Assembly (NCBI GenBank): GCA_945883955.1
Contig: CAMCYN010000005.1
Span: 1 to 44,830 of the forward strand
Direction of reading: 5' to 3'
DNA length: 44,830 nt
Source: Akkermansia muciniphila
GTDB lineage: Bacteria > Verrucomicrobiota > Verrucomicrobiia > Chthoniobacterales > Chthoniobacteraceae
Within the stretch, counting starts at the first letter, position 1. Every line of letters begins with the position of its first letter. The position numbers and the translations under genes are program-made. The notes under the pieces are model-generated. The model was not told the DNA's origin. It worked only from the letters and a program-made list of their open reading frames with translations, and ran no database searches. This document shows positions 14,731-39,840 of this stretch, one piece after another.

Positions 14731-15894
14731 TTAGCGTGAGTACCAACTCTCTACGATGGTCTTAAAATTGTTTTCTGCGATCTGAATAATAGCCATTTCC
14801 CGCTGAGCGGCTTCAGGAGCATCCGAAGCGTGGGCGGCGTTCACCATGATGGTTTGGCCGAACTCTCGACGGATTGTTCCGGAGGGTGCTTTCGCTGGAT
14901 CGGTTGGCCCGAGGACGTCGCGGGTTTTGCGGACGGCATCCACTCCCTGGTAGACGAGGGCAATGCACTTTTCAGTGCCGGGAGCGTTGCGCAATTCTGC
15001 GGGGCACTCGCTCGGTTTGCGTCCGGCCATAAATTTCACGATCTGTTCCCAGTTCTCGCGCCCGTTGATGGGGCCAAGCAATTTGCCGAGTTTTTCCTGG
15101 GTTTCTTCAGTGAGGCTCAATCCGAATTCCGCCTCGAGAACCTTCCGGGCTTGTTCGCCGGAGCGACCCTGCAGTTTATCCATGAGGACTTCGAGCACCG
15201 GGCCATAGAACTGTTCGGCCTGCGCCACACTCATGCGGTGCACCTTGAACCCAACGATGTAGAGACCCGAACGGGAAAAGACATCCATCACTCCGCCCGG
15301 ACGGGTGTTGGGGCCGCGGAAATTGTCGGGTTTGATCAGAACGAGGGTTTTTTCGACAGACTGTCCGGGAGGATAGGTGATGGCGGAATCCATCACGCCG
15401 CCTTCGGTGTCGGAATGCTGTGCCCAGAGCAGAAGGTCGGCTTTGGCGCTGGCTGCATTCTGGGCAGCGATGGCGGCCGGTTCAAAATAAGTTATCGTGC
15501 CGTGAGCGTCCGTGATGAAGTCGCCGAAGGTGTCGCGGATGGTTTCTCCTGAGGTCCGTTCGTGAAGAATGTGTCCCACCGCTTCGCGGATTTTAGCCAC
15601 GGCTTGTTCACCCTTGAAAACGAGCATCAAAACTCGGGGTGTGCTCTCGGGGGTGGGGGTGAAATTTTCCAGGACATACTGGCGAATGCGTTCCTGAATT
15701 TCCCGGTGTCCGGGATCATCTGCGGTCACGATGCGGTTGGCATATTCGGTGACAAGTTCCGCGGAAGGCGTGAATATGCGGCCGGCCACAAGATCCAGCG
15801 CGGTACGCGAGATGAGTCGGGATAAGATCCCACCAGTCCGTGATTTGCGGATGGAGTGCGGGGTAACAAGTACGTAGGAAAGTTCTTCGGCCAT
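14731..15894 (-). CDS. ndk: two-domain nucleoside diphosphate kinase
   Basis: This 387-residue protein contains two NDK-like domains, whereas a typical NDK is about 140 residues. The C-terminal domain (from about 180) has KTLVLIKPDNF with the catalytic-site Lys and the active-site His in VNAAHASDAPEAA, so it should exchange the terminal phosphate between nucleoside triphosphates and diphosphates. It carries an internal insertion (about 235-310). The N-terminal domain (about 6-150) starts YVLVTPHSIRK, where Thr replaces the Lys; its His region (TDAHGTITYFEPAA) keeps the His but loses the SD. It is probably degenerate or regulatory. ATG 15894 begins just six bases after the U tract of a hairpin, with no visible Shine-Dalgarno. 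Confidence 0.88.
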   Translation of the reverse strand: MAEELSYVLVTPHSIRKSRTGGILSRLISRTALDLVAGRIFTPSAELVTEYANRIVTADDPGHREIQERIRQYVLENFTPTPESTPRVLMLVFKGEQAVAKIREAVGHILHERTSGETIRDTFGDFITDAHGTITYFEPAAIAAQNAASAKADLLLWAQHSDTEGGVMDSAITYPPGQSVEKTLVLIKPDNFRGPNTRPGGVMDVFSRSGLYIVGFKVHRMSVAQAEQFYGPVLEVLMDKLQGRSGEQARKVLEAEFGLSLTEETQEKLGKLLGPINGRENWEQIVKFMAGRKPSECPAELRNAPGTEKCIALVYQGVDAVRKTRDVLGPTDPAKAPSGTIRREFGQTIMVNAAHASDAPEAAQREMAIIQIAENNFKTIVESWYSR

Positions 15895-15898
15895 ATGA

Positions 15899-16007
15899 CA
15901 AAAAAGGCCCGCGCTCGAGGTCGCTGAAGGTTTATCCAGCGAGGCTCTCGTGCGGGCAGTGATCCTTACTTCAGCGGCTTGGTTGCCCCTAAAGAAAGGG
16001 CGGCAAC
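15899..16007 (-). promoter_or_regulatory. attenuator-like RNA leader upstream of ndk
   Basis: In the minus-strand transcript a hairpin between GCCCGC-containing arms (about 15957 to 15907) is followed by UUUUUU ending six bases before the ndk ATG. Its 3' arm contains CTTCAGCG (15929-15922), which can instead pair perfectly with CGCTGAAG at 15976-15969. That alternative would break the terminator stem. A further stem GTTGCC/GGCAAC (16007-15982) lies upstream. The layout is that of a transcription attenuator, but I match it to no known riboswitch class. A plain terminator of the channel operon is the alternative. Confidence 0.5.
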
Positions 16008-16031
16008 GGTAGTGCCCCCGGTTTCGGTGCG

Positions 16032-17213
16032 TCAACGTATTTCCCGAGACACGCCCGACTCTGCGAGGGGCGCGTCTTCAGATCGCGCCGGTTCATCATG
16101 CTTTTGTCCGCAGGTGGGGCAGTGCCTCCAACCCGGATCCCAATCCGTGGGAAGATCCTCGCCTCCGTCGTCCTTGTCGCTTTTTTCCAGCTCTTCGGTT
16201 CCGAATAGGGCGGTCATCATCGCTTTTCCAATGATATTCATCAGCATCCCAAACAAGGCCAATCCGCATAACATCGTGACGGATGCGATAAGGCGTCCGA
16301 CGATTGTGATTGGATACATGTCTCCGTAGCCGACGGTGGTGAGGGTTACGATGGACCACCACATTGCCTGGGGGACCGAGGTGAACAGGGTGTCTTTGGC
16401 CCATTTACCTTTCTGGGCCAGATTTATTCCCTCCAGAAGGGCTGGATCTGGGAGTGCGACTTCGAAGAAATCGTCCTTGGCATTCCATGTTTTAACTTCG
16501 AATGGCCCGCTCAATTCGCCGTATCCGTCCAGGGTGACTTTGCTACCAGACAGGTCTCCGTGGAGTTCGCTTGTTTTTACCCGGAGCATTTTCGGGCCTG
16601 CTTGTTCAACAGATACGGTGGTGCCGTTGGAATATTCGGCTTGGTAAACTAGCGAGCTGGAAATCATCACCACGGAAAACAGGGCCAAGAAATAGATGGT
16701 CAGGTTCATCCGGAGGGAATTTTGTTTCACCTCGGTCTGCGTGGAGGCCTGAAGCCGGGTCATGGCCTCCCTCGCCAGTTTAAGGACCCGTAGGACTCTG
16801 AGTACTCTAAGAATTCGAAGGACGCTGGCGGATTTGAGGGCAGTGATATTGGCCAGCATCAGGAAAGAGGGGGCAATGGCGAGGAAGTCTATCAGGCCCC
16901 AAAAGCTGAAAATGTAGCCAAATTTGTTTTTGGATGTGAGGATGTTAGCGATGTATTCGAGGGAAAAGATGCCGACGACGGTCCATTCCGCCAGAACCAG
17001 GTAGGCTCCCCACGTATCCTGAAGGGATGCGACTGTTTCTAGAGCCCCTACGATGGCTGAAACAAAAATCGTGATGTTCAGGAAGTTATGAACGGGGCCG
17101 TAACTTTTGGCATTAGGTACGTGAAGTGCACGGAACAACCACATGGGCCCCGCGGCATCGGGAATCGATGGTTGAGCGACTGGATGGTGGTGGTGACGGG
17201 TACGATGGGGCAT
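16032..17213 (-). CDS. voltage-gated-type K+ channel (first of a tandem pair)
   Basis: This 393-residue six-helix K+ channel subunit is probably a homotetramer in the inner membrane. S1 lies at about 43-62, S2 72-92, S3 100-121, and S4 129-146 with Arg at 133, 136, 139, 142 and Lys 145 in strict three-residue spacing. S5 is at 169-190, the pore loop is 280-300 with the filter TVGYGD at 293-298, and S6 is 304-338. Two parts are unusual. Residues about 191-272, between S5 and the pore helix, form an 80-residue extra-cytoplasmic insertion with a beta-like segment (GSKVTLDGYGELSGPFEV). The cytoplasmic tail ends with HCPTCGQKH (364-372), a possible metal half-site. It lies 161 bases downstream of a close paralogue. 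Confidence 0.9.
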   Translation of the reverse strand: MPHRTRHHHHPVAQPSIPDAAGPMWLFRALHVPNAKSYGPVHNFLNITIFVSAIVGALETVASLQDTWGAYLVLAEWTVVGIFSLEYIANILTSKNKFGYIFSFWGLIDFLAIAPSFLMLANITALKSASVLRILRVLRVLRVLKLAREAMTRLQASTQTEVKQNSLRMNLTIYFLALFSVVMISSSLVYQAEYSNGTTVSVEQAGPKMLRVKTSELHGDLSGSKVTLDGYGELSGPFEVKTWNAKDDFFEVALPDPALLEGINLAQKGKWAKDTLFTSVPQAMWWSIVTLTTVGYGDMYPITIVGRLIASVTMLCGLALFGMLMNIIGKAMMTALFGTEELEKSDKDDGGEDLPTDWDPGWRHCPTCGQKHDEPARSEDAPLAESGVSREIR

Positions 17214-17255
17214 GACAAAAATAGACCGTTAGACCGAAGCGGGCGGGGAAAGTGC

Positions 17256-17374: not shown

Positions 17375-18532
17375 TTATTCCAGTTGTGCGATAGCCGGAG
17401 CGGCAATGGCTTGCGTTTGTGGCGGGTGATGGTGCCCGCAAGTGGGACAATGAAGCCAGGTGGGATTCCAAGCTAGGGGCATCGTGTTTTCAACCGGTGC
17501 GAGGTCATTTTTATCCAGGTCCTCGGAGCCGAAGAGAGCTGCCATCATGGCTTTTCCGACGATATTCATGAGCATGCCGAACAGTGCCAATCCGAGCAAC
17601 ATGGTGAAGGCTGCTACGATCCGGCCGAAGACGGTGATTGGATACATGTCGCCATAACCAACCGTTGTTAGAGTGACAATCGACCACCACATACTCTGCG
17701 GCACCGAGGTGAATGGGGTGTCTTTGGCCCAGGAGCCGTGGTTGGTGAGGGGAACTCCTTCGAGTGCGGAGGGGTCTGGCAGCGCGATGTCGAAATGTTT
17801 GTCTTTCGGGTTCCAGTCCTTCACTTCAAAGGGGCCGCTCAAGTCGCCATAGCCACTTAGCGTAACCTTACTTCCGGCCAGATTGCCGTGCATATCGTGG
17901 GATTGAATCCGAAGTGTTTTTGGGCCTGTGGCTTCAATGGTCTGTATGCTGCCACTGGCGAATTCGGCATGGTAAACGAGGGAGCTGGAAATGATGACCA
18001 CAGAGAACAGAGCCAGAAAATATATGGTCAGGTTCATTGCTAGCGGATTTCGCTTTTCTGCCTGAGTGGCCGACTGCATCCGTTGCATGGCTTCCCGGGC
18101 TAGTTTGAGGACCCGTAGCACTCGTAGCACTCGCAGCACCCGCAGGACGCGGGCGGATTTGAGCGCCGTGATGTTGGCCAACATCAGGAAGGAAGGCGCG
18201 ATGGACAGAAAATCGACGAGGCCCCAGAAGCTGAAGAGGTAGGCTTTTTTGTTTTTTGCCGTGATGATATTGGCGGCGTATTCGATGGCGAAAATGGCTA
18301 CGAAGATCCATTCGGCGACCGCCAGCGTGTGAGCGTGGTGGCTTTTAATGGATTCTACGGTTTCGAGGGCTCCAATGATCGCGGAGGCAAAAATGATGAC
18401 ATTTAAAATGTTATGCAGGATCTGGTAACTCTTCGCCTGAGGGACGTGTAATGCTCGGAAAAGCCAGAGCGGCCCGGCGACCTCGGGGAGCGGAACGGGA
18501 ACGGGGGATTGGGAGCGGGGCGAATGTGGCAT
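17375..18532 (-). CDS. voltage-gated-type K+ channel (second of a tandem pair)
   Basis: This 385-residue paralogue of the next gene downstream shares its whole layout. It has six membrane helices, an S4 with four Arg and one Lys at three-residue spacing in a run of RVL repeats, the filter TVGYGDMYP, an 80-residue S5-pore insertion (GSKVTLSGYGDLSGPFEV), and a tail ending in HCPTCGHHH. ATG 18532 is chosen because it aligns with the start of the paralogue (MPHSPR versus MPHRTR); the open frame extends 23 residues further. High identity along the full length, including the insertion and Cys-His tail, shows duplication after both additions were acquired, and suggests heteromers are possible. It is transcribed first and lies divergent from the cytochrome/DUF1549 gene. 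No ligand-binding RCK or cNMP domain is present. Confidence 0.9.
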   Translation of the reverse strand: MPHSPRSQSPVPVPLPEVAGPLWLFRALHVPQAKSYQILHNILNVIIFASAIIGALETVESIKSHHAHTLAVAEWIFVAIFAIEYAANIITAKNKKAYLFSFWGLVDFLSIAPSFLMLANITALKSARVLRVLRVLRVLRVLKLAREAMQRMQSATQAEKRNPLAMNLTIYFLALFSVVIISSSLVYHAEFASGSIQTIEATGPKTLRIQSHDMHGNLAGSKVTLSGYGDLSGPFEVKDWNPKDKHFDIALPDPSALEGVPLTNHGSWAKDTPFTSVPQSMWWSIVTLTTVGYGDMYPITVFGRIVAAFTMLLGLALFGMLMNIVGKAMMAALFGSEDLDKNDLAPVENTMPLAWNPTWLHCPTCGHHHPPQTQAIAAPAIAQLE

Positions 18533-18720
18533 AAAATATACGGATTCTTGGAGCGGGGTAGTGACGGCCCTCTGAATAGCCATTTCGCGGCGTGTCGACA
18601 AATCTGCATTCCTCGATGGGTGATTACAGAGCGCTGAGGGTTTGGGGACGGGTGGGGTGGGGAGCCTAATTTTTTTGGGCGGTCTGGGTCGTCACGGGGC
18701 GGACTTCGCTTGTTTCCTGT

Positions 18721-39567: not shown

Positions 39568-39840
39568 TCAGGACTGAGGGGGTCCCGGCCAGGCGCCGCA
39601 CGCACCTTTGCCGGGTGCGGCGGCGAGAGGTTCCGACGTCGGATCGCTGAGGGTCATGAGAACATCCCGGGCTCGGGACGGCTCCCTGGAAGAGAGAACC
39701 TCCAGCGCCTTCAGCAGGGCCTTATGACGAAAATCGCCCTCGCCCTCTGCCCTTTCAACGCGATCAAGGAAGGCGGCGAGCTCGATGAGCTTGCAGCGTG
39801 CATCCATAAAATACAGGTCCAGAACCTGTTGGCGTGTCAT
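39568..39840 (-). CDS. small protein upstream of the TatD/EboB-like gene
   Basis: I do not recognise this 90-residue protein with confidence. It starts [21 protein letters not shown] and continues [21 protein letters not shown], a helical pattern of a real gene, with a C-terminal [19 protein letters not shown]. Position directly before a TatD/EboB-like gene (13-base gap, same strand) suggests it belongs to the same pathway and could be a short EboA-related protein, but this is a guess. It has no signal peptide or membrane segment. Confidence 0.65.

Follow-up and report, generated by a model that had tools for sequence, protein, structure and literature searches.

Layout of the ndk locus and its leader

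The window, by which we mean the whole stretch of 44,830 nucleotides that was analysed, contains an ndk gene on its minus strand whose start codon is backed by homologues. ndk, a housekeeping gene, serves to keep the nucleoside triphosphates in balance. Its product here is 387 aa in length with an interrupted or repeated NDK domain, the usual NDK being ~140 aa; this long form is widespread in the order. An ion-channel gene (Pfam Ion_trans) lies upstream on the same strand with its stop codon at 16034–16032, and 137 bp separate its end from the ndk ATG. The features of the locus are as follows.

14731–15894, minus strand: ndk (Pfam PF00334 NDK, E 1.2e-34, three matched stretches; ATG at 15894–15892)
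15900–15905, minus strand: U run UUUUUU after the stem, with one C between stem and U run
15907–15957, minus strand: conserved terminator-like hairpin, lower stem GCCCGC/GCGGGC, apical stem UCGCUG/CAGCGA
15922–15929, minus strand: CTTCAGCG, the 3′ side of the apical stem in the hairpin fold
15964–15999, minus strand: 5′ hairpin of the leader in the spacer fold, CCUU.CUUUAG.GGC ... GCC.CUGAAG.AAGG
15969–15976, minus strand: CGCTGAAG, the antiterminator strand proposed in an earlier note on this DNA, complementary to 15922–15929 and situated inside the 5′ hairpin
16006–16011, minus strand: predicted −10 element TACCGT (TAGnTT in most relatives)
16030–16035, minus strand: predicted −35 element TTGACG of the ndk promoter, a conserved motif overlapping the ion-channel stop codon

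The upstream ion-channel gene (16032–17213) adjoins a second, similar gene of the voltage-gated type (17375–18601), also on the minus strand. By eye the pair is a tandem duplication; the Pfam check covered the first gene only. The start of this first gene (TTTTTGTCATG at 17211–17221, minus strand) resembles the ndk start context. A general U-rich translation signal was considered and rejected, as just 6 of 106 starts were U-rich and TTTTTGTCATG occurred in 5 copies in the genome compared to 1 for the reversed control.

In the order of transcription the locus reads TTGACG, an 18-bp spacer, TACCGT, the 5′ hairpin, the long hairpin, a single C, six U residues, the five bases GTCAT and the ATG. 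Judging from the promoter motif, transcription is predicted to start at ~16000 ± 3, which places the hairpin downstream of the ndk promoter. Essentially all family members have TTGACG, a 16–18 bp spacer and TAnnnT in the corresponding position, as do relatives without the hairpin. As the conserved predicted promoter lies upstream of the hairpin, ndk transcripts initiated from it must cross the hairpin. Two other arrangements were tried and discarded. A second promoter inside the leader (TTTACA-N17/18-TACGCT), seen by eye in genus g2, was not conserved in g1, g3 and g9, and a coding leader (TTG start at 16035, 434-aa frame) did not hold in homologues, most of whose frames stop 3–25 residues before the ATG.

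The earlier note had argued for conditional read-through on the grounds that a plain terminator in this position would leave no room for an ndk promoter or ribosome site. The predicted promoter at 16035–16006 answers the former point. The latter is weak; Shine-Dalgarno sites are predicted for just ~10% of Spartobacteria mRNAs (PMC10783764), so a leader with no space for one gives no reason to invoke a switch.

The long hairpin has a folding energy of −29.3 kcal/mol (z −4.2), which was equalled by none of 200 shuffled sequences, and its lower stem is rich in C-G and G-C pairs. The hairpin (stem 15957–15907) and its U tract (15905–15900) were correctly described in the earlier note as lying right at ndk, and the AUG itself is not buried in the structure. 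Folding of the plus strand of this region was no better than that of its shuffles, indicating that the minus-strand RNA is the relevant one. The element shows two features of an intrinsic terminator or attenuator, a stable GC-rich hairpin and a U run immediately 3′ of its stem. Hairpin-plus-U terminators are also found 3′ of other genes in the window's genome, so intrinsic termination appears to be in use. As a background sample we examined 176 gene starts in ~245 kb of this genome. A simple hairpin at or below −20 kcal/mol that also had a U run and a stem end no more than 16 nt from the ATG was found at ndk alone; the nearest other start reached −18.7.

The further upstream stem reported in the earlier note (15999–15964) also exists. 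The spacer containing this 5′ hairpin folds at −19.0 kcal/mol (z −3.45, p 0.003), and a folded spacer was found in all 12 genomes of the window's genus (mean z −2.1) and not in other genera. We conclude that the extra 5′ stem is real but confined to the window's genus.

Conservation, covariation and linkage to ndk

ndk was found in 36 of 40 Chthoniobacteraceae genomes at E 1e-60 or better, and the DNA upstream of it was readable in 38 genomes, two of which have a split or partial gene. Of these 38, 36 have the promoter and, immediately 5′ of the ATG, a hairpin with its U run. The family comprises Verrucomicrobiota of soil and freshwater, and these 36 members share a common anatomy: a promoter ~105–180 bp upstream, a leader of ~70–150 nt, a GC-rich hairpin and a U run just before the AUG. 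Four or more consecutive U residues were present in 35 of the 36 members with the hairpin, the remaining one (G024) having UUUCC. The run consists of four U's in genera g2 and g4, and in g2 it reads only AAUUUUC. Loci named by organism belong to Chthoniobacteraceae/Spartobacteria and include the isolate Chthoniobacter flavus Ellin428, which has the element (L078/L012). Outside the family, one genome of family f4 (G058) carries it as well.

In the two exceptions, G016 and G018 (genera g6 and g8), there is no leader and the ATG directly follows the promoter. Several loci outside the family (L060–L068) also have the promoter at the ATG. Because the promoter adjoins the ATG in relatives without the element, the leader appears to be a lineage-specific addition, most simply explained by insertion of the hairpin leader between promoter and ATG in this lineage. 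In the hairpin-less relatives L060–L068, L079 and L049 the promoter just before the ATG would yield a nearly leaderless ndk message, and a run of the CCCUUUU type often abuts the AUG. In families f6 and f9 the ndk leader is short and contains another kind of hairpin without a U run; at L094, L095, L097, L098, L100 and L105 it is ~43–81 nt with a small GC hairpin of the CCGCC...GGCGG type. The f6/f9 hairpin is possibly an independent ndk leader element.

The mean hairpin z-score was −4.1 for 38 sequences. A MAFFT alignment of 27 hairpins yielded the consensus lower stem, and 34 sequences were then aligned to covariance model R1. In this alignment the lower stem was 92% paired, with changes on both sides in four of its nine pairs. 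The covariation score of the whole structure was 0.310, compared to 0.203 ± 0.018 for shuffled versions and ≤0.133 for slid ones. An alignment fitted to R1 leans towards the model; the MAFFT alignment, which was not structure-fitted, gave the same picture (0.309). MAFFT alignments within genera contained compensatory pairs in g9 (2), g5 (2), g3 (6 of 19) and g2 (1). The upper stem varies in sequence among genera, but nearly every individual fold had it paired. A mismatch (A.C and others) was retained at the fifth stem pair in 11 of 32 distinct sequences. The earlier note had proposed a covariance search of ndk upstream regions in relatives, with lack of covariation in homologues as the outcome that would count against it. 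That search recovered the element together with compensatory changes in its stem, and covariation above the shuffled level is present.

When R1 was run on the 40 family genomes, every match of at least 28 bits was located at ndk, and all others scored 24.3 bits or less. Since many of those ndk elements had been used to train R1, the window's genus was held out and a second model, R2, was built on six other genera. R2 ranked the window's element first in its 3.8-Mb genome (E 0.0027; next match 0.92) and recovered most other members of the genus. The genes upstream of ndk and their orientations vary between genomes, and the hairpin stays with ndk. As strong matches occur only before ndk while the upstream genes vary, the element belongs to ndk. 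Weak model matches elsewhere in the phylum (388 genomes; L162–L165) were dismissed as ordinary terminators or chance, not ndk. Within the window, both models gave a weak match at 39718–39780 on the minus strand (19.3 and 15.6 bits), probably an ordinary terminator.

From these computations we conclude that the hairpin is real, stable and conserved, and that, together with its promoter motif and U run, it is linked to ndk and covaries. Compensatory changes across homologues and a constant association with one gene are what is expected of a structured cis-regulatory RNA, and we regard the element as a candidate motif of this kind.

Alternative pairing and the question of a switch

According to the earlier note, CGCTGAAG can pair with CTTCAGCG and thereby dissolve the terminator, and a nucleotide might be the ligand. 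The element would then be an attenuator of the riboswitch type, in which terminator and antiterminator helices exclude each other, a reading that we consider improbable. The two strands are indeed complementary, but their pairing is neither above chance nor conserved. The best contiguous helix between spacer and hairpin in the window reached −15.3 compared to a shuffle mean of −13.7 (p 0.17), and no antiterminator counterpart was found in genera g2, g3, g5, g7 and g9. Two tests for such pairing across 36 leaders turned up no signal: only one spacer outdid 95% of its shuffles in pairing with the hairpin (mean z −0.18). A spacer–hairpin pairing, CCCGCUGA/UCAGCGGG, was seen in G029 of genus g5 (p 0.012) and speaks for a switch, as does the occurrence of the 5′ hairpin throughout the window's genus. 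In the complete leader the CGCTGAAG/CTTCAGCG fold is 19 kcal/mol worse than the terminator fold, which argues against the switch, whereas the difference is just 2–4 kcal/mol while the lower stem is still incomplete. This low cost would make a kinetic antiterminator role possible in the window's genome alone. The spacers of g3, g5, g9 and most of g2 are A/C-rich and unfolded, and a general switch of this type is therefore unlikely.

Riboswitches with a terminator expression platform resemble the element in having a hairpin and U run in the 5′ leader, to which the window's genus adds the extra 5′ stem. They differ from it in that the ndk leaders contain no conserved aptamer-like sequence and no conserved, mutually exclusive alternative helix. 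The earlier note had matched the element to no known class, and our search of Rfam 15 with the window and its relatives agreed: no relevant family, aptamer families included, matched at the gathering threshold, and matches below it were at chance level. A leader-peptide attenuator coupled to the ribosome is the least probable reading of all and hardly credible. A short ATG reading frame is present in a few leaders, but when leader frames were scanned none was conserved, and most leaders had no ATG frame. What survives of conditional read-through as first proposed is a structured, ndk-specific, terminator-shaped leader with a promoter upstream; the antiterminator switch does not.

Possible roles of the hairpin: attenuation and its rivals

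The reading that we favor, at about even confidence, is that the hairpin is a leader attenuator or partial terminator limiting ndk, with no conserved switch of the riboswitch type. Transcription would start at the conserved promoter ~105 nt upstream of ndk, and polymerase would meet the GC-rich hairpin and then the U run ending just before the AUG. Some of the polymerases would terminate at this point, yielding a short leader transcript of ~100 nt. ndk is probably made only on read-through of this stop-like signal. The level of read-through would not be set by a conserved alternative RNA helix; it would be either constant, with the hairpin as a damper, or adjusted by a protein or through RNA polymerase speed. 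We infer termination at the hairpin, its efficiency and its regulation.

Several observations weigh against attenuation. When the E. coli formula of d'Aubenton Carafa was used to score terminators, 25 of 36 family members were above zero and 11 were below zero. The window's own score was a moderate 6.1; three reference terminators after genes scored ~38–54. G024 keeps the hairpin with UUUCC, and g2 has just AAUUUUC. UAUCU between the U run and the AUG is conserved in several genera and would be superfluous for a terminator. As a pyrimidine or U run often precedes the AUG in hairpin-less relatives too, the U run may have another job.

The main rival of attenuation, which we consider possible but clearly less probable, is a post-transcriptional role: as a 5′ UTR element, the hairpin would set how well a message lacking a Shine-Dalgarno site is translated or how stable it is. 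The hairpin could be a roadblock or standby structure by the AUG, or a protein-binding, possibly autoregulatory, site, with the U run as a landing site for the ribosome or S1. Such a role would fit retention of the hairpin alongside a degraded (G024) or weak (g2 and g4) U run, the conserved UAUCU, the retained mismatch in the fifth pair, the short f6 and f9 leaders that have a hairpin without a U run, and the low use of Shine-Dalgarno sites in Spartobacteria (PMC10783764). It fits poorly with the 35 of 36 members in which a U run adjoins the stem, as termination requires, with the fact that U-rich starts are not general in this genome, and with an AUG lying outside the hairpin. Far less probable still is a terminator of the upstream ion-channel gene that lies next to ndk by accident. 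That gene does share the strand of ndk, and its end is 137 bp from the ATG, but the predicted ndk promoter lies between it and the hairpin, the hairpin accompanies ndk while upstream genes and their orientations differ, and it is lost together with the leader in g6 and g8. A more speculative reading, which we rate as unlikely, is that in a message lacking a Shine-Dalgarno site a single start-codon-abutting hairpin would combine partial terminator and translation gate. This would be a new leader class in which read-through is set by RNA polymerase speed, such that NTP supply would feed back on an NTP-making enzyme with no antiterminator helix.

Attenuation thus remains the reading that we prefer, and it has parallels among known systems. 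Like an intrinsic (Rho-independent) terminator serving as a leader attenuator, the element consists of a GC-rich hairpin and then a U run between promoter and first gene; unlike one, it lies next to the AUG at its 3′ end, lacks a conserved alternative helix and shows stem mismatches and a moderate score in many genomes. In E. coli, Naville and Gautheret (2010, PMC2965389) described candidate attenuators at <15 nt from the start codon and proposed a combined transcriptional and translational effect, there called not yet demonstrated. These share with the ndk element a terminator that abuts the start codon. They are from another phylum and, as far as the text shows, do not precede ndk, whereas the ndk element is conserved family-wide with covariation. 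The rnk-leader and greA-leader attenuators in the same study are alike in that their pathway is linked to nucleoside diphosphate kinase, but they precede rnk or greA rather than ndk (PMC2965389). Neither Rfam nor the literature searched yielded leader-RNA control of ndk. No paper found in that literature joined Verrucomicrobia, nucleoside diphosphate kinase and riboswitch, and ndk was not mentioned in the large RNA motif papers searched, a search that did not extend to the 2017 set of 224 motifs.

Since Chthoniobacter flavus Ellin428 is an isolate with the element, the leader is testable without recourse to a metagenome-derived genome. A conserved terminator-shaped leader in most genera of the family, absent where the promoter adjoins the start codon, offers a natural experiment on attenuator gain.
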